Origin: Propionibacteriaceae bacterium
GTDB lineage: Bacteria > Actinomycetota > Actinomycetes > Propionibacteriales > Propionibacteriaceae
Assembly (NCBI GenBank): GCA_030537675.1
Contig: JAUNVL010000015.1
Location: forward strand, 1 to 38,513
DNA length: 38,513 nucleotides
Direction of reading: 5' to 3'
Shown: one piece after another, positions 5,836 to 38,460 of the stretch
Layout: each line of letters opens with the position of its first letter
How positions within the stretch are numbered: position 1 is the first letter of the stretch
Program-made: the position numbers and the translations under genes
The notes under the pieces: model-generated
Told to the model about the DNA's origin: nothing
The model's input: only the letters and a program-made list of their open reading frames with translations
Database searches by the model: none

Positions 5836-8482
5836 GGTGGGCCAGCGCCAACTCGATGGCTGCCAGAGCCTGCGGCGCAGCCTCGGGGGTGGTGCCGCCG
5901 CCCTGGGCCATGTCGTCACGACCACCGCCCTTGCCGCCGAGTGCCGCACACGCCGGCGCGATGAGTGAGCCCGCCTTGATGCCGAGCTCACGGGCCGCAT
6001 CGTTGGTGGCCACCAACGCCGCTGCCTTCCCGTCTCCGCCACCCACCAGCGCGACCACGGCGGGCGCGTTGCCGAGCCTGTCGCGCAGGTCGAGCGCCAG
6101 TGTGCGCAGGTCGCCACCGGATACTCCGGCGAGTTCGATACCGAGGTACCTGACCCCCGCGATGTCTCGCGCCTGGCTGGTGAGTTGGCCCGCGTTGGCA
6201 CGCAGTTGTGCTGCGTGCAGCGCTGCGATCTGCTTCTCCGCGTCCTTCAACGCACTGATCAGTTTCTCCACGCGTCCGACGACCTGGTCAGGCTGGACCC
6301 TCAGGGTTTCCGTCAGGGTGCTCACCAGTGCCCGCTCAGCAGCGAACTTCTTGAACGCATCGTCGGCGACCAGGGCCTCGACGCGTCGTACTCCGGAGCC
6401 GATCGAGGCCTCGCCGACGAGGTTGAGGACACCGATCTGGCTGGTGTTCGGCACGTGCGTGCCGCCGCAGAGTTCCCGCGACCATGCTCCGGCCAACTCC
6501 ACCATGCGCACGATCGGCGGGTACTTCTCCCCGAACATGGCCATGGCGCCCATCGCGGTGGCGTCCTCGAGCCTCATCTGGGCCGACGTCACCTCGAAGG
6601 AGTCGCGGATGGCCTCGTTGGCGCGCTGCTCCACCTCCTGGCGCAGTGCCGGCGACATTCCCGAGGGCGCGGCGTAGTCGAAACGCATGTAGCCGGGCTT
6701 GTTGTAGGAGCCGGCCTGGGTGGCGCCGGGCCCGACGAGTTCGCGGAGCGCCGCGTGGATGATGTGGGTGGCGGTGTGTGCCTGGCACGAGCCGCGACGC
6801 GCTTCGGCATCGACGATCGCCCGGGCGTGGGAGCCGGTGGCCACCTCACCCAGAACACGGACGAGGTGCACAGCCAGTCCGGGGATGGGGCGCTGGACGT
6901 CCAGCACTTCGAGGGAGAAGCCGTCTCCGACGATGGTGCCGTGGTCCGCGTCCTGTCCGCCGGCCTCGGCATAGAACGGGGTCTCGGCCAGGACCACCTC
7001 GACGACGTCGCCGTCTCCTGCCCGATCCGCGACGGAGCCGTCGGTGATGATCCCGGCGACGGAGGTCTCGATGTCCAGATCGGTGTAGCCGAGGAACGGC
7101 ACTTCGCCGGCCTCCCGGACCTGCCGGTAGGCCTCCGTGCTCGCGGCTCCACCCTTCTTGGACTTCGCATCCGCGCGAGCGCGCTCCTTCTGCTCCGACA
7201 TCAGGGCATTGAACTTCTCGCGGTCGACGGCGAGGCCCTGCTCGGCGGCCATCTCCATGGTGAGATCGATGGGGAAGCCGTAGGTGTCGTGCAGCTGGAA
7301 CGCCTGGTCGGCGGGCAGCGACGTCTCCCCCGCCTTCTTCGCGCGGCTGGCCGCCACATCCAGGATCACGGTGCCGGAGGCAAGGGTCCGACGGAAGGAG
7401 TCCTCCTCCGTGTCGGCGACCGGAGCGATGCGGTCCCACGCCTGGTCGATCTCAGGGTACGAGCTGCGCATGGCGTCACGGCTGACGGGCAGCAATTCCC
7501 GAAGAACCTTGTCGCCCACGCCGAGCAACCGCATGGCGCGGATGCTGCGCCGCATGAGCCGGCGCAGCACGTATCCGCGGGCCTCGTTGCCGGGAGTGAC
7601 GCCGTCGGTCATCAGCATCAGGGAGCTGCGGACATGGTCGGCCACCACGCGGAACCGGACGTCGTCGGCGGGATCCGCACCGTAGCGACGGCCCGAGAGC
7701 TCGGAGGCACGCTGGATGACGGGGAACACCTCGTCGATCTCGTACAGGTTGTTGACGCCCTGCAGCAGCAGCGCGGTGCGCTCGAGGCCGGAGCCGGTGT
7801 CGATGTTGCGGCTGGCGAGAGGCCGGGCCACGTCGAAGTCGTCCTTCGCACGGACGGCGGAGAGCTCCTCGGTCTGGAACACGAGGTTCCAGATCTCCAG
7901 GAACCTGTCCTCGTCCGCCTCGGGGCCACCGTCGGGGCCGAAGGCGGGTCCGCGGTCGATGTAGATCTCCGAACAGGGACCGCCCGGACCGGGCACGCCC
8001 ATGTGCCAGTAATTGTCCTTCAGCCCACGCTCCTGGATGCGGGCGCGGGGGATGCCCGCCCGCTGCCACAGGTCGATGGTCTCGCTGTCGCCGTGCAACG
8101 CGGTGACCCAGACCTTGTCGGGATCAAACCCCCAGTTGCCCTCGGCGACGCTGCCGGTCACCAGCTCGAAGGCGTAGGCGATGGCCTCTTCCTTGAAGTA
8201 GTCACCGAAGGAGAAGTTGCCATTCATCTGGAAGAACGTGCCGTGGCGGGTGGTGACACCCACCTCGTCGATGTCGAGGGTCCGGACACACTTCTGGACG
8301 GAGACGGCGCGCTTGTACGGGGCCGGTTCCTCGCCCAGGAAGTACGGCTTGAACGGCACCATGCCGGCGTTGACGAACAGCAGTGTGGGGTCGTTGTACA
8401 ACAGCGACGAGCTGGGGACCACGGTGTGGCCGTTGCGCTCGAAGAAGCTGATGAACCGGCTCCGGATGTCGGAGGTCTTCAT
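5828..8482 (-). CDS. alaS: Alanyl-tRNA synthetase
   Basis: Charges tRNA-Ala and edits mischarged Ser/Gly. 884 residues, the usual length. The class II catalytic core is at the N-terminus (R-S-R-F-I-S-F-F near residue 6; F-F-Q-M-N-G-N-F-S-F-G-D-Y-F in motif 2; G-S-G-L-E-R-T-A-L motif 3). The editing domain has the H-T-A-T-H zinc ligands and C-G-G-T-H. A DHHA1/C-Ala domain ends the protein. The ATG at 8482 begins M-K-T-S-D-I-R; a GAGGG element lies about 10 bases upstream. The frame stays open to 8560, but that stretch is the preceding small gene. Confidence 0.98.
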   Translation of the reverse strand: MKTSDIRSRFISFFERNGHTVVPSSSLLYNDPTLLFVNAGMVPFKPYFLGEEPAPYKRAVSVQKCVRTLDIDEVGVTTRHGTFFQMNGNFSFGDYFKEEAIAYAFELVTGSVAEGNWGFDPDKVWVTALHGDSETIDLWQRAGIPRARIQERGLKDNYWHMGVPGPGGPCSEIYIDRGPAFGPDGGPEADEDRFLEIWNLVFQTEELSAVRAKDDFDVARPLASRNIDTGSGLERTALLLQGVNNLYEIDEVFPVIQRASELSGRRYGADPADDVRFRVVADHVRSSLMLMTDGVTPGNEARGYVLRRLMRRSIRAMRLLGVGDKVLRELLPVSRDAMRSSYPEIDQAWDRIAPVADTEEDSFRRTLASGTVILDVAASRAKKAGETSLPADQAFQLHDTYGFPIDLTMEMAAEQGLAVDREKFNALMSEQKERARADAKSKKGGAASTEAYRQVREAGEVPFLGYTDLDIETSVAGIITDGSVADRAGDGDVVEVVLAETPFYAEAGGQDADHGTIVGDGFSLEVLDVQRPIPGLAVHLVRVLGEVATGSHARAIVDAEARRGSCQAHTATHIIHAALRELVGPGATQAGSYNKPGYMRFDYAAPSGMSPALRQEVEQRANEAIRDSFEVTSAQMRLEDATAMGAMAMFGEKYPPIVRMVELAGAWSRELCGGTHVPNTSQIGVLNLVGEASIGSGVRRVEALVADDAFKKFAAERALVSTLTETLRVQPDQVVGRVEKLISALKDAEKQIAALHAAQLRANAGQLTSQARDIAGVRYLGIELAGVSGGDLRTLALDLRDRLGNAPAVVALVGGGDGKAAALVATNDAARELGIKAGSLIAPACAALGGKGGGRDDMAQGGGTTPEAAPQALAAIELALAHRG

Positions 8483-10728: not shown

Positions 10729-11559
10729 ATGGAGCATTTCCTACCCGCCGTCTTCGCCCGCCGGGAGCACCTGGCCCACCTCGGGCACATCAACCATCTG
10801 CGCCGGACCAGTGCAATTCGGACACTCCTACCCGGGGTGTACTGCTGGTCCGGGATCGAGGACTCCTTCGAACTCCGTGCAGAAGCCGTCAGGCTCTGGG
10901 ATCCGAAGGCGATCTTCCTGGGTGCCACGGCGGCACGGCTTTCTTGGTGGCCAAGCCACCCGGAGGGCAGGCTTCTTGTCTCCGGCACTCACGCCCGCAC
11001 GCCTCGGCCCTGGCTGGAGGTGACGTCGAAAAGGGTTCCAGGAGAACTCATGGCGCAGCTCGACACGATCAGCGTTGCCGATCCGGCTCTGGCTGTGCTC
11101 GAAATGGTGGCGGCCGGCGACGGGAACGCCATCTGCGAAGCACTCCGACGTGGGGCGACAACTTTGGCGCGAATGCAGAACGCCGTCAAGATCGTGAAGT
11201 GGGCAAATGGAAACACGATGCGGCGCCGCCTGCTGCACGAGTCCCGGGATGAACCGTGGTCACCGCTCGAGAGGGAGGCACACACGTTGCTGCGTGCAGC
11301 CCACATCAGGGGGTGGCGGACGAACTACCCTGTGCGAACCGTGCGGGGAAAGCTCTACATCGACGTGGCTCTGGTCGAGGAACGAGTCGCTGTCGAGTTG
11401 GACGGTTGGGAGCACCACGGCACAAGGGAGGCATTTCACGCCGACCGACACCGCTGGAACTCCTTCACCCTGGCGGGCTGGGAGGTCCTGCATTTCACGT
11501 ATCGAACCCTGCCAACGATGGTTCCCACGCTCCAACAGATCTTGCGCACACGGCGATGA
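10729..11559 (+). CDS. DUF559 / Vsr-like endonuclease-fold protein with AbiEi-like N-terminal region
   Basis: 276 residues, function unknown. The C-terminal 90 residues match the DUF559 pattern of the PD-(D/E)xK nuclease fold: E181 in S-P-L-E-R-E, D212 in Y-I-D-V-A, E223 and D225 in V-A-V-E-L-D-G, histidines H229/H230, then D-R-H-R-W-N and G-W-E-V-L-H-F-T. The N-terminal half (L-L-P-G-V-Y near 34, G-A-T-A-A-R-L near 66) resembles the winged-helix/AbiEi-like part often fused to DUF559 in Actinobacteria. The ATG at 10729 has a weak GTGGGA element; a GTG at 10645 would start inside the palindrome. It is on the opposite strand from both neighbours and is bracketed by related palindromes, suggesting acquisition as a unit. 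No obvious toxin or partner gene is adjacent. Confidence 0.82.
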
Positions 11560-21347: not shown

Positions 21348-21707
21348 CTACGCACCCGACAGGACGTCGGCGAGCACTCGGGCCTGGCTGTGTTCCACGT
21401 CCTTGGTGGCCGTCAGAAGAGTGAGACGTGTCCCGCGCACGCAGTCCCGCAGCTCCTTCAATGCAGCCACGCCAGCGGATGATTCCAGCTCGGCGCGGTA
21501 GCGTCGGGCGAACTCGTCGAACTTCTCCGGATCGTGCCCGTACCACTGGCGCAGTTCATGGGACGGCGCCACATCCTTGATCCAGTGCTCCATCACGACC
21601 TCGGACTTCTTCATCCCGCGGGGCCAGAGTCTGTCCACGAGCACCCTCGTGCCGTCGTTGTGCGTCGGTTCCTCCTGGACCCGACGGATCCACACGCTCA
21701 GGGTCAT
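21348..21707 (-). CDS. DUF488 family protein (YeaO-like)
   Basis: 119 residues, function not established. The hallmark segments are R-V-L-V-D-R-L-W-P-R-G-M-K-K, H-W-I-K-D-V-A-P-S, L-R-Q-W-Y-G-H-D-P-E-K-F-D-E-F-A-R-R-Y, and L-T-L-L-T-A-T-K-D-V-E-H-S-Q-A near the end, which is the standard layout of the family. The ATG at 21707 follows GGAG with a 7-base spacing. It lies 38 bases after rel on the same strand and may be read from the rel message. The long open frame upstream to 22007 is inside rel. Confidence 0.92.
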   Translation of the reverse strand: MTLSVWIRRVQEEPTHNDGTRVLVDRLWPRGMKKSEVVMEHWIKDVAPSHELRQWYGHDPEKFDEFARRYRAELESSAGVAALKELRDCVRGTRLTLLTATKDVEHSQARVLADVLSGA

Positions 21708-21745
21708 CTCGCGCTCCGTCCCGCACTCCACGATGTGCTGGTTTC

Positions 21746-31982: not shown

Positions 31983-32939
31983 TCACCTTACAGACTTGGT
32001 CCCCGGGATGGTTTTGCTCATGAGCAGCACGCTGTCGCGATCCTCGTAGCCAAGGGGATCCCGCAACATTTCCGGCACTCCCGTGTCGTCGGTGTCCACC
32101 CCGATCCCCGCCCCACGGCACTGGGAGTGCGCCATGGATTCCATTGTTCTCTCCAGCAGGGCACTCGCTATGCCCTGGCGGCGGTAGGCCGGATGGACCC
32201 CGATGCGCTGGGTCCAGCCCTCCACCACCCCGTCGACGGCGGCCGCATCGTCCTCACCTGAGAGCACATATCCCACCGCACCCTTCCCGTTGATCGCCAC
32301 CCAGGACCAGTCGGGGCGCACACGTGAGAGCGAGCTCTCCCAGTGGTCGTGCTCAGCGTCGGAGCCGAAGCACAGGTGGTGGAGTTGGTGCACTTCCTCA
32401 CTGTTGGCATCATCGAAGGCCACGAAGGAGACACCGTCCACCATTCGCGGCACGGGGACGACGTCGAGGGGGCGCTGCATGTCGATGAAGTGACGCTCCT
32501 CCTGAAAGCCCAGTCCCTTCAACATGTGGTGCAATCCCGCCTGGGTCCCCTCCACGTAGCAGCCCAACCACAGGTCCATCCCGGGACGCTCGGCATCGCG
32601 CCACTCGATGCCGCGCGCCACCTGCCAGTCAAAGAGTTTGCGTCCGATCGAGAGGTAGCGATGGGTGGGGTGCACCCCGCCGGCCAATGTCACGCGCGCA
32701 TGATCCTGATCGGCGTGGACGATGTTCCAGCCGTAGGCCATCAGGCTGCCGTAATTGTCCCAGCCGCCCACGCAATGCCCACCGTCCAGCGTGGCCCCAT
32801 CGTGGAACAGGAGTCCCTCGACGGTCGTGATCATGGTGTCGTCGAACGCTTCGATCTGGTGACGCAACCTGGCCAGTTCCTCCATGTCGCCGGGTTCCAT
32901 CATTCGCCAGTGCAAATGGTCTTCCACGTAACTGTCCAC
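31983..32939 (-). CDS. Tandem GNAT acetyltransferase
   Basis: 318-residue protein with two GNAT-like domains; substrate unknown. The N-terminal copy has a degenerate acetyl-CoA site ([16 protein letters not shown] near 105-120). The C-terminal copy has a good one ([19 protein letters not shown]). The two-domain form resembles mycothiol synthase and other actinobacterial tandem GNATs, but it is too dissimilar for me to assign a substrate. The GTG at 32939 (V-D-S-Y-V-E-D-H) has GGGAGGA 6 bases upstream; an in-frame ATG at 33017 would add 26 low-complexity residues. Confidence 0.85.
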
Positions 32940-32973
32940 GCCGGTCCTCCCTGCGTCTGCTGGAGTTCTATGG

Positions 32974-32979
32974 ACCTTA
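32974..32979 (-). promoter_or_regulatory. Possible -10 element of the GNAT gene
   Basis: TAAGGT on the minus strand, in an AT-richer patch (32940-33032) that has no gene. It would give a leader of about 28 bases. The -35 (TTATTT, spacer 16) is weak. Confidence 0.3.
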
Positions 32980-33032
32980 CTCGATGAAAGTGCGGAAATA
33001 ATGCCTTGCGGGGACACTACGCCTGGGTGGGG

Positions 33033-33824
33033 TCAGCGCCAAAGATTGTGCTGCGGTTGCTCCCGGGGTGACGTCTGCCCCCACAGCCTGCGCCAGCGCG
33101 GCATGGCCTCGGCCCGACATGCAGGGGCTGCGGCACCCCGTTGAACAGCCCACCACGACAGGTGCTCCGCCTGGAAGAGTTCACCCACAGCGGCCTGCAC
33201 CTCCGCCGTCGTTCCTCCGAGCGACCGCCCGTGCACGTAGATCGGCGCTCCGAAGCAGACCCACACCTTGGGCTTGGACTTCAGCGTCAGGCGCAGGATT
33301 TCCTTCAGTTTGAACGTTCCCCCGAGTGCGACCGGCACGATGGGGATGCTGTACTGCGTGGCCAGGTCCGCGGCCACGGTGGTGAAATCGCCCACCTGGT
33401 CCGGCACCAAGGGATCATCCGTGAACACCGCGACGCTGCGACCCTGCGACAGTGCGCGGCTGAGGCGACGGTGGGTGGTGCGCAGCCGGGGCGGGAGCAC
33501 GAGTCGCAACACCTGCCAGTCCAGCGGTCCCTGCTCATTCACGGCGAACACGACGGGGGCCTCGAGACCTGTGAGCGCGTCGATGCCCATCACCTGGTAA
33601 TCCACCCGCCAGGCCAGCATGTTGAAGATGTCCGGGATGCGACGCAGGTCGCTGCGGGACAGCCGGTCGCGTGGCTCGCTCTCGCGCGGTGGCGCGCTGT
33701 GGGGCCGTCGGGTACGCAGCCCGAAGAGGGTCCCGGCGAACGCCAGCATGTCACCCGGCCACGTGATGCGCGGGGCTCTTTTGGCGCTGGACGTCCTCGT
33801 CCAGGAGCTCAGCTCACGCGTCAT
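33033..33824 (-). CDS. PlsC/AGPAT-fold protein with degenerate active site
   Basis: 263-residue protein related to 1-acylglycerol-3-phosphate acyltransferases. The fold is visible in A-P-V-V-F-A-V-N-E-Q-G-P-L-D (89-102) and I-P-I-V-P-V-A-L-G-G-T. In the catalytic NHx4D motif the histidine is replaced by glutamate (N96-E97, D102 kept), and the usual F-P-E-G-T-R-S is F-T-D-D-P-L-V. It is therefore probably not an active acyltransferase, or it uses another chemistry. The ATG at 33824 overlaps the LarA-like stop as ATGA, so the two are coupled. Last gene of the hisA / FAR-HAD / LarA-like group. Confidence 0.8.
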   Translation of the reverse strand: MTRELSSWTRTSSAKRAPRITWPGDMLAFAGTLFGLRTRRPHSAPPRESEPRDRLSRSDLRRIPDIFNMLAWRVDYQVMGIDALTGLEAPVVFAVNEQGPLDWQVLRLVLPPRLRTTHRRLSRALSQGRSVAVFTDDPLVPDQVGDFTTVAADLATQYSIPIVPVALGGTFKLKEILRLTLKSKPKVWVCFGAPIYVHGRSLGGTTAEVQAAVGELFQAEHLSWWAVQRGAAAPACRAEAMPRWRRLWGQTSPREQPQHNLWR

Positions 33825-35341
33825 GACACGGACCCCAGCACCCGTCCCGGACCGTGCAGGTGTGTGATCTCGGGACGATGCCCCACGACTGCGGCGGCGA
33901 TCTCGTAGGCGTCCGTCAGCGTGCTGGCCGCGCGGTGACCCATCATTGCAGCGGTACGGCGGTCCGCCCCCACCCAGATCACGTCGGCGAGCCCCTGCGT
34001 TGCTTCCCGGAGCCGGTACCAGGTGTGGAACACGCCCAGCGGATGGTGCGCGAAGCGCTCCTTGTACAAATTGAGATACCAGGGGTCCACGGCCGCAGCA
34101 GCCTCGAAGCGCTCGTGGATCTCGAAGGGATCCAGCGTCTGCGGCAGCACGTTGACGAAGAAGTCGGCGGAGGCTGACTGCGTGCGGTTGGAGAAGTTCT
34201 GCACCAGCGGGTGCAGGGCCACCACCACACCCTGGTCACGCACCAGGGGCTGGCCGAGGTGACAACCTGCCTGCTCCACGAGCGCGTTGTGGGCTGCCCG
34301 GATGGGCGAACCCACGGGGTTGCCGACGTCGAAGGCCGAGCCCCATACCGACGCCACCAGCACATCCGCCTGCCGACCGAGATCGACCAGGTGCGCAGCC
34401 CGCCACACTTCACGGGCCTCGGCGTGCACTGCCTCGGGTTCCCCACCCACCATGTCGAGGACCACGTAGTCCGCCCGAGGAGCGGCATACAGCTTCTGGG
34501 CGCCCTGTTTGGGCAGCGCTGCGACGAACTGGCGTGCTGCGGCATAGGCGAGGTGGTCCGTGAATCGCCACTCCCACTCGCGCCGGTTGAGGAACGACAG
34601 GCTGGGGTGCATCCGTGGCTGCCCCAGGACGGCAACGACCGCGAACGTGGGAATCTGCGCGGAGATGAGCGCTGCCACATCCTCTGTCGCAGAGGGGGCC
34701 GCGCCGAATCCAGCGATTCTGTTGATGGTGTCCACGTCAGTGAGACCCAGCGTGAACGGGTGGCCCTCAGCATGGTCGTCGCGGACTCCGATGCTGACCA
34801 CCAGGTCCGACGACGCCACGCGCGCATTCATCCGCACCTCGTGGCCGCCGACCTCCCCGATGCTGACCAGGTCATCGCTCGTGACGTCGTGGCTGGTGAT
34901 CAGGTTGTCGGCCAGGAATGACGTGGCCACACGATCGCCCAACACCTCGGTGATGTCACGGTCGGACCAGCGTCGATTGAGCCCGGTGGCAATCACCACC
35001 TGGACGTCGTCCACCTTGTTCCGAGCAGCAAGTTCGAGGACCCGCTCCACCATCGTGCGGCGAACGTCGAAGCGCATCCGTGGCTGCGGACGGCTGTTGT
35101 CGGTGACCACGATGGTGAGGCGAACATCAGGCGCGAGGCGCTCCGCCAGGGGTTGACCGACGACCGGTGACTCCAGCGCGGCATCGATCAGCGGGACAGG
35201 GTCCGAGGAGGGGACCGCATCGGCCGGGTATGCCACGCGTGTTCCCGGACCGAAGCGCTCCAGTTTGACCGATGCGCCGGCCATGGTCAGCAGCGGTGGG
35301 GTCTTCTCGTCGACCTCGAGGACGAATCCGGGGCGTGGCAT
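33821..35341 (-). CDS. LarA-like DUF2088 protein (lactate racemase superfamily), divergent
   Basis: 506 residues. The N-terminal domain matches DUF2088/LarA: V-V-T-D-N-S-R-P-Q-P (79-87) in place of D-x-T-R-P-x-P, then A-T-G-L-N-R (118-123) where LarA has G-T-H-R, S-H-D-V (150-153), and D-D-H (188-190). The G-G-x-K segment of LarA is not seen after it. LarA proteins use a nickel-pincer cofactor to racemise or epimerise 2-hydroxyacids; with a histidine changed to Asn here, activity is uncertain. No cofactor genes (larB, larC, larE) are in the window. ATG 35341 has AGGAG 12 bases upstream, 26 bases after the fusion gene. Confidence 0.8.
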   Translation of the reverse strand: MPRPGFVLEVDEKTPPLLTMAGASVKLERFGPGTRVAYPADAVPSSDPVPLIDAALESPVVGQPLAERLAPDVRLTIVVTDNSRPQPRMRFDVRRTMVERVLELAARNKVDDVQVVIATGLNRRWSDRDITEVLGDRVATSFLADNLITSHDVTSDDLVSIGEVGGHEVRMNARVASSDLVVSIGVRDDHAEGHPFTLGLTDVDTINRIAGFGAAPSATEDVAALISAQIPTFAVVAVLGQPRMHPSLSFLNRREWEWRFTDHLAYAAARQFVAALPKQGAQKLYAAPRADYVVLDMVGGEPEAVHAEAREVWRAAHLVDLGRQADVLVASVWGSAFDVGNPVGSPIRAAHNALVEQAGCHLGQPLVRDQGVVVALHPLVQNFSNRTQSASADFFVNVLPQTLDPFEIHERFEAAAAVDPWYLNLYKERFAHHPLGVFHTWYRLREATQGLADVIWVGADRRTAAMMGHRAASTLTDAYEIAAAVVGHRPEITHLHGPGRVLGSVS

Positions 35342-35367
35342 GGGTGGTGACGGCTCCTGTCGGTGAT

Positions 35368-37719
35368 CTAAGAGGGTAGCTTCCAGCGGGGCTGGGGCGA
35401 GCTCGCCGGCCAATCAATGATGGACCAGCCACTGGTGCGCGCGGCGCGCATCAGACCGATGTCGGGGCTGACCGCCACCGGATTGCCGACAGCGCGAAGC
35501 ATCGGAAGGTCGACGTGGCTGTCGGCGTAGGCGAAGGACTGGCTGAGGTCAATGCCGTGCAGGGCCGCATAGTGATCCAGCCAGGCAGAGCGTGACTCAC
35601 CCACCATGGGTGGGCCGGTCAGGAATCCGGTGCAGTTCCCCTCGGCGTCCACACCGAGGTCAGCAGCCACGATGTGGTCGAAGAGACCCTCGAACGGCCG
35701 GGTCAGTGGACGGATGACGCCGGTGATCAGGATGGTGGTGTGGCCCGCTTCACGGTGTGCCCGGATGCGTCGCAGAGCGTCGGCAGAGCTGCGGTCCAGG
35801 ATGTGGGCCGCCAGTTTCTCGTCGACGTAGGTTTCCATGTCGGCGAGGTTCGCACCCTCGTAGCGGCGGTAGACCTGACGCAGGAAAATGCCGCGATCCT
35901 TGCGCTCCGCCGCCAGGTAGTTGGGCATCTGCGCGACGACCCGGGCCACTTCGGCGGCGCGTTCCACGACCGAGAGTTCCGGCAGCCGGAGCCACAGGTA
36001 CGTCTCGATCACGTTGGTGACCATGACGGTGCCATCGAGGTCGAAGGCGGCAAGCACGGTGCCCGGCTCAGCCGGCTTCAGGTCCTTGAAGGTGGCCGAG
36101 CGCGCCTGCCGGCGCTTGCGCGCGGACTCGAGGCGCCGTACCGGGTCAGTGACCGCGGGGCAGTGCACATCCTCGATGTAGTGCGTCCAGTCAAAACTCG
36201 CCGAGTCGAAGCTGAACGCATCCACGTCGGCCTCGTCGAGGGAGCGGTGCAGCGCCAGGGTGCAGTCGTCGACGAAGTGCAATTCGGACTGCAGGTACTC
36301 GCCGTACAGCGACAGGTACTTGTTGAGGAATTCCAGTTGCTTGGTGGTCTTGTCGAGCGCCGTGGCGGCAGCTCGCACCCTGTGCCCGCGTGGGGCGAAG
36401 CTGAGCAGTCGGTTGCCGATCGCCGTGCCCTTGCCCGCGAACCACAGCATGCGCTCCACAGGTTCTGCGCCGGGGAAGTTCCAGGTGGCCAACGGCGCGG
36501 AGCCCTGACCGACGACGTAGGGGTGCTTGGTGAAGTAACTGCGAATGTGCTGGTAGATGCCCCTGAACGTCAGGGGGTTCCGGGCCCCTGAGCTGCAGTG
36601 GTAGTACTCAGGCTCCCCGACGGTGGGCTGCGTGGCGCAGACGGCGATGATGGCATTGACCACGAAGTCACACGGGATGATGTCGATGACCGCGTCCGGC
36701 GAGGCGGGGAACTCCGCCAACTGGCCGCGACCGTAGGCAAGGATCAGCGGGTCTGCCATCTTGAAGCCCTCGATCCAGCCCTCGTGCGGGAACCGCAGCG
36801 ATGACTCGACGATGGCGGGCCGCACGATGGAGACCTGCATGTCATGGCCCATCTCGGCCACCACGCGCTCCCCCATGGCTTTGGCGAAAGTGTAGACGTC
36901 GGTCCAGCCGAGCGAGCGCGCGCGCTCAGTCCCGGCGGACACCAGTTCCTGCTTCACCCATTCCTTGCGGCGTCGCTCGGTGTCCTCCGATGTGGTGAGA
37001 TAGCCGGCTCGGCGGTGGAGACGCTCCGCCTGCTTGCGCAGGATCGTGAGCTGCTCGGAGCTCCGGGAGCGGGCCTCGACGTGTTCCGCCATGGCGAGAG
37101 CGGCTGCCGCTTCCACCTCGTAGTCGACGTCGTGGATGTGCGCGGCTTCGGGGATGGGTCCGCGTCGACGACCCGCGGTGTAGGCCGTGGAGATGTGCAC
37201 ATAGTGCGGCACCTTCACCAGGTTGCCCTCAGCGTCGCTGCATGCCTCGCGCAGCTTGCCGAGCAGCGCCTTGGTGCCGACGACGTTGGTGGTGAACGCC
37301 TGGTCGATCGGAGGATCGAACGACACGTCACCTGCGCAGTGCACGAGGATGTCCAGGTCGCGCGGCAGGTCCGGAACGCGCGGGAGGTCGCCCTCGATGA
37401 CCTGGACACGCTCCGCCATCAGGGTCTCGACGGAGCCGGCCGCGGCCACCACGTCGGCGAAGATCTTCTTCTTCAGCAGGCTCTTCACTCGCTGCTCGGC
37501 AGTGACCGAGCCCTTGCGGCGTACGAGGACACCTGTGCGGACATCGTCACACTCGGTGAGGATCTTCCAGAGCATCTGCTCCCCGATGAAGCCCGTGACG
37601 CCCGTCATGACGATCTTCTTGCCGGCGAGGAGGTCCTTGATACGACCGGTCAGCAACGGCGGGGTGTGCACCCCTGCGTGGTCCGACGCACCAAAGCTGC
37701 TGCGCGGCGCCTCAGCCAT
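35368..37719 (-). CDS. Fatty acyl-CoA reductase-like SDR fused to HAD-IB phosphatase
   Basis: 783-residue fusion. Residues about 30-400 form an extended NAD(P)-binding reductase of the male-sterility/FAR type: nucleotide loop G-V-T-G-F-I-G (40-46) and active-site Y276-x3-K280. A FAR C-terminal (sterile) region follows with [12 protein letters not shown] (464-475). After a basic linker (530-550), residues 556-760 form a HAD-IB hydrolase with D560-L-D562-G-T, the I-L-I-T-G motif II (663-667), and Y-A-D-S-H-V-D-L (731-738). Expected activities are reduction of an acyl thioester and dephosphorylation; the actual substrate is unknown. The ATG at 37719 follows GGGGGAAAG and overlaps the hisA 3' end by 8 bases. 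Confidence 0.88.
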
Positions 37720-38449
37720 GCGTCTTTCCCCCTGCCACTTCCAGCGCCTCGGGCAGCGTGAAGGCGCCCATGTAGAGGGCGGTGCCGATGATGGCACCCT
37801 CGACACCGATCGGGACCAGTGTGCGCAGGGCCCTGAGGTTCTCCAGCGTCGCGATGCCCCCGGAGGCGATCACGGCTGCGTCCGTGAGTTCACACACGGC
37901 CTGGAGAAGGTCGATGTTGGGACCGGTCAGCATGCCGTCGGAGTTGACGTCGGTGACCACGAAGCGTTCACAGCCGGCTTCGGAGAGGAAGTCGAGGGTC
38001 TCCTGCCAGGGGCCGCCCTCCTGGGTCCAGCCACGCGCCGCAAGGTTGTCGCCGCGCACGTCCAGACCGATGGCGATCCGATCGCCGTGGTCGGCGATCA
38101 TGCGCTCGCACCAGTAGGGCTGTTCGAGCGCGGCCGTGCCGATGTTGACACGTCGGCAGCCGGTGGCGAGCGCCCGGTTCAGTGAGGCATCGTCCCGGAT
38201 CCCGCCGGAGAGTTCCACCTCCACGTCGAGCTTCCCGATGATGTCGCTCAGCAGTTCGGCGTTGGAGCCGCGTCCAAAGGCCGCGTCGAGGTCCACGAGG
38301 TGGATCCACTCCGCTCCCTGGTCCTGCCAGCGCATGGCCGCGGCGAGCGGGTCGCCGAATTCCTTCTGGGTTCCTGCCACGCCCTGGACCAACTGGACGG
38401 CGCGGCCGTCTGTCACGTCGACGGCTGGCAACAGCTGTAATGCATCCAC
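37712..38449 (-). CDS. priA: Phosphoribosyl isomerase A, HisA/PriA type
   Basis: TIM-barrel isomerase in histidine biosynthesis; in Actinobacteria lacking a separate TrpF the same enzyme also serves tryptophan biosynthesis. 245 residues from the GTG at 38449, which places the first catalytic aspartate in L-L-P-A-V-D at D11, as I recall for the mycobacterial enzyme. The second aspartate is in [20 protein letters not shown] is the PriA-type phosphate-site segment, and V-E-L-S-G-G-I-R and A-S-G-G-I-A follow. A GTG at 38455 is also possible; AGGG sits 9 bases before 38449. First of the group continuing into the FAR-HAD fusion. Confidence 0.95.
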
Positions 38450-38460
38450 GATCACGAACC

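Follow-up and report, generated by a model that had tools for sequence, protein, structure and literature searches.

Degenerate LarA-like and PlsC-like proteins accompany a fatty acyl reductase-HAD fusion in Propionibacteriaceae, in a gene cassette that recurs across Actinomycetota

Why would an operon keep, next to an apparently intact enzyme, two relatives of enzymes whose active sites are gone? This question is raised by a 38,513-nt stretch of DNA from a Propionibacteriaceae bacterium (GenBank assembly GCA_030537675.1, contig JAUNVL010000015.1, positions 1 to 38,513), hereafter the window, which lies on contig C127 of a 3.06 Mb genome. Four minus-strand genes lie head to tail in it, encoding PriA, a fusion of a fatty acyl-CoA reductase with a HAD-IB phosphatase domain (FAR-HAD), a protein resembling the nickel-pincer enzyme LarA, and a protein with the fold of the acyltransferase PlsC (Table 1). 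An earlier note, made from the sequence of the window alone, had described four consecutive genes with overlaps or short gaps, and the coordinates bear this out: FAR-HAD overlaps priA by 8 nt, the PlsC-like gene overlaps the LarA-like gene by 4 nt, and the gap between FAR-HAD and the LarA-like gene is 26 nt if the latter starts at ATG 35341. FAR-HAD is the sole member of the group in the window with intact catalytic motifs. We find that the FAR-HAD/LarA/PlsC grouping is ancient and real, and the reading that we favour, at about an even chance, is that the window holds a stripped-down family form of an old cassette, in which FAR-HAD is the remaining catalyst and the LarA-like and PlsC-like proteins are non-catalytic partners.

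The loss of the nickel-pincer site is clear from alignment. The window LarA-like protein matches Lar_N (66.3 bits) and reaches 334.8 bits against the LarAH14/15/16 model NF052592, for which the cut-off is 740. At the column of the catalytic His108 it carries Asn146 (numbered from the TTG start), within the A-T-G-L-N-R stretch (residues 142-147) that the earlier note had singled out, and it is without both the cofactor lysine (Lys184 equivalent) and the nickel-ligand histidine (His200 equivalent). An alignment error is ruled out by a canonical LarA from contig C143 of the same genome, which shows GTH, SGGNK, and SH in the corresponding columns, and alignment to intact homologues at the histidine and lysine columns likewise gives no sign of a register error. 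The fold itself appears to have outlived the site: the AlphaFold model is confident (pLDDT 91.1, pTM 0.89), and of its 19 Foldseek matches at E ≤ 0.001, 18 are titled LarA, lactate racemase, or malate racemase, the 19th being Thermotoga maritima 4nar. In this predicted structure, the LarA fold is retained.

The same degeneration is seen throughout the family. All three LarA motifs (His108-type, the lysine motif GGxKS, and HH) are present in each of the 21 intact-type loci (14 deep within the phylum and 7 from the order); the intact type was counted in 89 genomes (71 by the family cut-off and 18 in the order), and its residues were read in these 21. By pattern, the three motifs occur in 1, 0, and 1 of 59 Propionibacteriaceae loci, respectively, of which 31 are from the genus of the window and 28 from elsewhere in the family. 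The one His108-type match is a genus locus (L004; 1/31 versus 0/28), and in a second genus-set sequence, L030, reading by eye shows a histidine at the first position as well. The 31 genus loci represent 30 genomes, as L003 is a repeat of the window and L033 appears to lie on the same contig as L006. Two genus genomes with frame breaks in FAR-HAD, LarA, or PlsC (L049 and L050), which are possibly assembly errors, were left out of the motif counts. Outside the genus, 32 family genomes have a LarA-like match and 28 were read, four with partial matches being set aside (G358, G366, G403, and G416); the family loci cut by contig ends are L085, L101, L105-L108, L119, L120, and L126. The cofactor-less LarA sequences form one clade (31 rows, support of 100). 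Comparison of 54 cofactor-less sequences with the intact set shows that 54 of the columns conserved in the latter persist and 58 do not, the His, Lys, and His-His columns being among the 58, and that only five columns are newly conserved over that clade (G144, T229, V262, A374, and L403).

The PlsC-like protein has fared similarly. As the earlier note had reported, Glu97 replaces the histidine of the NHx4D motif (N96-E97-QGPL-D) and the PEGTR motif is gone. The protein scores below the Pfam cut-off (16.6 versus 23 bits) and has a deletion of about 38 residues between blocks I and III. Intact homologues align with it, which argues that these changes are not a register error. Its model, which is of middling confidence (pLDDT 73.7), shows an acyltransferase fold and has two Foldseek matches at E ≤ 0.001, both to chains of Thermotoga PlsC (5kym, E 2.5e-6). 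NHx4D and PEGxR are both present in all 19 intact-type loci with PlsC. In the genus, by comparison, a PlsC match is found in 31/31 loci and neither motif in any, and in the rest of the family a match is found in 22/28 loci, with NHx4D in 9 and both motifs in 2 (L102 and L118). In L125 and L126, PlsC is a remnant of 186-189 aa. Only eight residues are invariant across 18 intact and degenerate sequences: P90, P164, G169, and G192, and the tryptophans W225, W244, W248, and W262 of the C-terminal tail. In strict form the tail pattern occurs in 66 of 72 PlsC loci; in five of the remaining six, W-x3-W and a late tryptophan can still be made out by eye, and the sixth has a truncated frame. This persistence of the tail beyond the active site is the strongest hint of what may be an adaptor role.

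FAR-HAD is the contrasting case, and the 783-residue fusion proposed in the earlier note stands. The window protein scores far above the cut-off for PF07993 (NAD_binding_4; 153.4 versus 20.1 bits), reaches 102 bits to PF12710, exceeds the cut-off of the HAD-IB model TIGR01490 (102.1 versus 98.3 bits), and matches PF03015 (Sterile) weakly, below the cut-off (30.8 versus 35.4 bits). In a 32-sequence alignment the motifs TGxTGFxG, STAY, YTFxK, FDxDGT, and YADS are intact in the window protein, with FDLDGT at the DxDGT site of its HAD half. These motifs are kept in 24/24 full-length family copies, in 12 genus copies, and in 8/8 copies of the close type from loci with FAR-HAD only. The HAD motif varies deeper in the phylum: it reads FDLENT in L058, L062, L063, L067, and L070 and also departs from DxDGT in L065, L066, L069, and L137, such that the HAD half may be changed there, though the LarA and PlsC motifs of these loci are intact. 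In one family locus (L105, 3690-6887), a single open frame joins PriA (residues 56-295) to FAR-HAD (residues 290-1065), which may reflect a genuine fusion or an error in the sequence of that draft genome.

The association of these genes extends well beyond the family. Among 296 Actinomycetota genomes, in which FAR-HAD was called present at E 1e-50 or better, NF052592 is over its cut-off in 71, and FAR-HAD is present in 70 of these (the exception being G277). FAR-HAD is found in only 7 of the 225 genomes without NF052592 over the cut-off: that of the window, three in which the family is matched in part (G157, G203, and G348), and G102, G126, and G320. In a sample of 117 family genomes, FAR-HAD is present in all 40 that are LarA-like-positive and in 20 further genomes without a LarA-like match, 11 with a close FAR-HAD type (8 read) and 9 with a distant one (2 read: L135 and L136). 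Gene order is equally consistent. A zinc (MDR) alcohol dehydrogenase of about 400 aa lies between FAR-HAD and LarA on the same strand in 20/20 loci (L051-L070), or 20 of the 21 loci outside Propionibacteriaceae; the L068 copy is nearest to polyol, idonate, and threonine dehydrogenases. PlsC is next in the cassette in 18 of the 20. These counts show that the genes form a real group, as the earlier note had supposed while allowing that they might never co-occur elsewhere; the cassette recurs across Actinomycetota. In three loci (L059, L060, and L068, the genes being named by NCBIfam in L068), larE, larB, and larC lie beside the cassette, an arrangement that links a gene cluster of lipid type with the nickel-pincer cofactor. 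When neighbouring gene families common to at least three loci were tabulated, most of them without annotation, one further family was seen to recur by the cassette in six of the 20 loci (L062, L063, L065, L066, L067, and L069), and the L069 gene at 5872-6432, which adjoins PlsC and encodes a TetR regulator, appears to be a member of it. We found no account of this cassette in the open-licence literature.

Since LarA and PlsC residues are intact outside Propionibacteriaceae, their loss is derived rather than a property of the system. The dehydrogenase is also gone: no match is found in the 28 family loci outside the genus or in L127-L136, and the orthologue present in 6/6 order genomes by genome search (69-100% identity) has no counterpart in the 36 genus genomes, which hold only distant paralogues (at most 37% identity). 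Relocation of the dehydrogenase elsewhere in the genome was rejected on this last result. On a FAR-HAD tree of 67 rows, in which the family is one group of 44 (support of 100), the LarA state changes 5 times and the PlsC state 13 times, although two of the PlsC absences (L108 and L119) are contig ends. LarA is absent in three family lineages (8 loci, L127-L134), each time together with PlsC, while FAR-HAD and priA stay; both partners are missing from all eight close-type FAR-HAD-only loci that were read, of 11 such genomes. Comparison of these loci thus shows the order of events: the nickel site and the dehydrogenase were lost before PlsC, at the base of the Propionibacteriaceae examined, and the PlsC active site was eroded later and more than once, both partners then being lost in places.

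Constraint on the two partners appears to have relaxed after the loss and yet to be still purifying. The underlying dN/dS values are rough, as pairs overlap and dS is partly saturated. In 13 genus pairs, dN/dS is 0.13-0.23 for LarA, 0.09-0.23 for PlsC, and 0.04-0.13 for FAR-HAD; in 10 other family pairs it is 0.09-0.43 for LarA, and in four of those it is 0.10-0.62 for PlsC, the highest being L115/L116. Relative to FAR-HAD, LarA dN is 0.29-0.98 in 8 intact pairs versus 1.17-4.0 in 23 lost pairs, and PlsC dN is 0.69-1.16 in 8 intact pairs versus 1.49-5.31 in 17 lost pairs.

The distribution of the cofactor gene larC follows the state of LarA. A LarC match is found in 18/18 order genomes with an intact-type LarA match (residues read in 7) and in 0/6 without, and in 62 of the 71 phylum genomes with NF052592 over the cut-off. 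With a degenerate LarA, it is found in 7 of 36 genus genomes, the other 29 having no match, and in 18 of the 40 LarA-like-positive genomes of the family sample. Pooled, this amounts to 80/89 for the intact type versus 21/68 for the degenerate type. The Fisher and rank tests used in the analysis ignore relatedness. The window genome encodes LarC, near its second, canonical LarA on C143, and the degenerate LarA of the window is thus not explained by a missing cofactor. One genome outside the family, G324, is an exception in several respects, since its locus (L137) has motif-intact LarA and PlsC with neither a dehydrogenase match in the locus nor a LarC match.

How might such a stripped-down cassette work? 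The ancestral form would comprise FAR-HAD, the zinc alcohol dehydrogenase, LarA, and PlsC, accompanied in a few genomes by larE-larB-larC. FAR-HAD would convert an acyl thioester into a fatty aldehyde or fatty alcohol by reduction, and its HAD-IB domain may dephosphorylate that same lipid or its acceptor. In the window, the LarA-like fold would act as an acyl-binding or scaffolding subunit, and the PlsC-like protein, by way of its conserved tryptophan tail, as an adaptor for the membrane or for docking, the two together keeping FAR-HAD at its substrate. As for the ancestral chemistry, LarA acts on hydroxy acids and the dehydrogenase is of polyol type, so that a vicinal hydroxyl, on either the acyl chain or the head group, would make sense for both; a 2-hydroxyacyl or 1,2-diol lipid is one guess at the product. 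The earlier note's proposal of a role in modifying an acyl chain or lipid fits the gene content, and a literature search gave no support for a specific lipid product (ether lipid, wax ester, or long-chain diol); the fatty alcohols and aldehydes that it turned up came from isolates of other bacteria and were of no use here. The note's reading of both proteins as degenerate is borne out. Of the new chemistry or binding roles that it further suggested, new chemistry is the less supported half, given five new columns against 58 lost and 54 kept. In its widest form, our proposal is that a nickel-pincer-dependent lipid pathway, without a name in the literature that we searched, exists in much of Actinomycetota and that, in Propionibacteriaceae, LarA and a dying PlsC have become pseudoenzyme subunits that dock FAR-HAD; we hold this tentatively, at somewhat less than an even chance.

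Several observations weigh against the proposal that the degenerate proteins are non-catalytic partners of FAR-HAD. Within the genus, 33 LarA columns are conserved at ≥95% and found in ≤10% of intact homologues (D226, T229, Q265, D315, D320, N341, N409, and R410 among them), as would fit a new active site. The LarA-like match, found in 36/36 genus genomes, is in pieces in three of them (G008, G015, and G028) and a fragment in G006. FAR-HAD persists in lineages without LarA and PlsC, which makes the partners dispensable there and would also fit slow decay, and PlsC is missing in four loci that keep LarA (L121-L124; yebC lies directly 3' of LarA in L121, L123, and L124, and no PlsC was found in L122), so that the pair is not always needed. 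No fusions were found among FAR-HAD, LarA, PlsC, and the dehydrogenase. Deep loci retain the FAR motifs, but the strict DxDGT motif of the HAD half is present in just 5/14. L137, the 21st locus outside the family, combines FAR-HAD, LarA, and PlsC with no dehydrogenase match. LarC is missing from 9 of the 71 phylum genomes with the family over the cut-off, among them two nearly complete genomes with intact LarA motifs (G324, 98%, which carries L137, and G355, 96%, which carries L070). Finally, FAR-HAD was found beside none of the more distant LarA homologues in seven loci (L071-L077, not counted among the 21 intact-type loci), L071 having merely a HAD-like match on the opposite strand; the link therefore holds for this LarA group only.

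Among the alternatives, the one that we take most seriously, while considering it unlikely, is neofunctionalization: the genus LarA-like and PlsC-like proteins would still be enzymes, with a new, cofactor-free active site. Strong purifying selection, the 33 genus-specific columns, which make a new function possible, and the confident LarA fold all speak for it. Yet the five columns gained by the cofactor-less clade as a whole include no His, Cys, Asp, Glu, or Lys, and 13 changes of PlsC state on the FAR-HAD tree are unlike the history of one new active site. Less probable again is that both proteins are relics of a decaying pathway with little or no present function. This would account for their faster evolution relative to FAR-HAD after cofactor loss, for the shrinkage and disappearance of PlsC and the joint loss of both genes in eight loci, and for the broken LarA-like matches in four genus genomes, but dN/dS is below 1 in every pair, a LarA-like match persists in every genus genome, and intact and degenerate copies still share 54 conserved LarA columns and the tryptophan tail of PlsC.

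The other explanations fare worse. The LarA-like protein might still use the nickel-pincer cofactor with shifted ligands, and with LarC encoded near the canonical LarA on C143 the cofactor may indeed be made in the cell; the near-complete absence of the lysine and nickel-ligand histidine motifs from the 59 family loci, together with the lack of a LarC match in 29 of the 36 genus genomes, makes this very improbable. We regard as similarly far-fetched the notion that the HAD domain is the missing histidinol-phosphatase of the neighbouring histidine gene. Loci of Propionibacteriaceae, and several in the order, do have FAR-HAD next to priA/hisA, and a HAD-type histidinol-phosphatase model gives 74 bits with the HAD domain, but the scores are far below the cut-offs (74.1 versus 280 for NF052360 and 72.5 versus 400 for NF052359), and no priA was seen next to the cassette in the 13 deep loci examined for this. 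A HisN-like protein is also found in 30/30 genomes tested (best scores of 265-282 bits, over the cut-off of 275 in 8), a result that is not decisive because the model matches 14/14 control genomes as well (over the cut-off in 2). That the grouping is accidental, as the seven distant-LarA loci without FAR-HAD might suggest, has next to no probability and is refuted by the co-occurrence counts, with FAR-HAD present in 70/71 phylum genomes and 40/40 sampled family genomes and the genes linked locally in 20/20 loci.

When compared to known systems, each of the proteins is recognizable and each departs from its nearest relative. The LarA-like protein shares its sequence family and fold with LarAH14/15/16, of which the intact-cassette relative in L068 is a clear member (914.6 bits); the window protein is below the cut-off and without the cofactor lysine, the nickel-ligand histidine, and the catalytic His108. 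LarA groups 14 and 15 are without the second histidine, and single-histidine LarA structures have been solved (Gatreddi et al. 2025, PMC12611868). The excerpts of Desguin et al. 2020 (PMC7583248) available to us set aside LarA groups 12, 13, and 16 on the ground that residues for catalysis and for the cofactor are not conserved, and they give no activity as detected for a Frankia LarAH14. NCBIfam joins groups 14, 15, and 16 in NF052592 as NPN-dependent. The closest solved folds are the single-histidine LarA proteins of Blautia and Streptococcus (PDB 9q3j and 9q3k; Foldseek E 8e-25, TM by query 0.66-0.71), one of which carries the cofactor and both of which have been linked to carbohydrate metabolism by gene context (PMC12611868); the window protein differs from them in having no cofactor site and in sitting in a lipid-type cassette. 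The PlsC-like protein shares its fold with Thermotoga PlsC and differs by the glutamate in NHx4D, the missing PEGTR, the deleted stretch between blocks I and III, and the family-specific tryptophan tail. FAR-HAD resembles the fatty acyl-CoA reductase 7eoz over some 500 residues (window protein, E 1.9e-47; L068, E 3.2e-56), to which it adds the fused C-terminal HAD-IB domain. The Elb ether-lipid operon of Myxococcus likewise combines parts resembling FAR, AGPAT, and HAD proteins; in the excerpts of its description available to us (PMC9131029), no LarA is mentioned, and ElbD has ACS and ACP domains that FAR-HAD is without.

Table 1. Features of the FAR-HAD locus in the window, with the larE-larB-larC genes found beside related cassettes.
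Feature	Position	Strand	Basis
priA/hisA (phosphoribosyl isomerase A, HisA/TrpF)	37712..38455	-	TIGR01919 hisA-trpF
FAR-HAD fusion, 783 aa	35368..37719	-	start ATG 37719; profile matches and motifs
LarA-like protein	33821..35341 (longest open reading frame: TTG 35413)	-	Lar_N, NF052592, alignments, AlphaFold, Foldseek
Codon of Asn146 (TTG numbering), column of catalytic LarA His108	34976..34978	-	alignments; LarA numbering from PMC12611868
PlsC-like (AGPAT-fold) protein, 263 aa	33033..33824	-	alignments, Pfam, Foldseek
Codon of Glu97, replacing the NHx4D histidine	33534..33536	-	sequence and alignment
C-terminal tryptophan tail of PlsC-like protein (W224-W225 ... W244-RRL-W248 ... W262)	33039..33155	-	18-sequence alignment
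Tandem GNAT acetyltransferase, downstream neighbour	31983..33017	-	profile matches
larE-larB-larC beside FAR-HAD cassette	L059 9631-12082; L060 4130-6439; L068 3624-6552		

Of the two candidate starts of the LarA-like gene, ATG 35341 (506 aa) is more likely than TTG 35413, because it gives the conserved RPGF start. PriA scores above the cut-off of TIGR01919 (353.9 versus 306.45 bits) and is thus phosphoribosyl isomerase A and not the helicase. The tandem GNAT protein is distantly MshD (mycothiol synthase)-like, and its gene lies 3' of the operon in many family loci; it is not tied to LarA and PlsC, because it stays by FAR-HAD in L128-L131, which have lost both. Beyond it, yebC and ruvCAB can be recognized by eye from the sequence. 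A related-locus search of the genome contigs gave one locus, in Tessaracoccus rhinocerotis (Propionibacteriaceae). Elsewhere in the window, 21351-21731 encodes a DUF488 protein whose top Pfam model is the inactive DUF488-N3 subclade, and 10729-11556 encodes a protein with a weak DUF559/REase_MTES_1575-like match.

The findings bear on how this part of the LarA family is annotated and where its substrates might lie. NCBIfam labels the LarAH14/15/16 model an NPN-dependent isomerase, and here a neighbouring, conserved branch cannot hold the cofactor as it is known. The intact-LarA cassette ties a LarA group without the second catalytic histidine to fatty-acyl reduction, which makes lipids a place to look for its substrate. 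If the proposed conversion of LarA and PlsC to docking subunits is true, the loci would form a natural series in which two unrelated folds pass side by side from enzyme through pseudoenzyme to loss, and the presence of such a graded series within one family makes the question of why an operon keeps dead enzymes directly testable.

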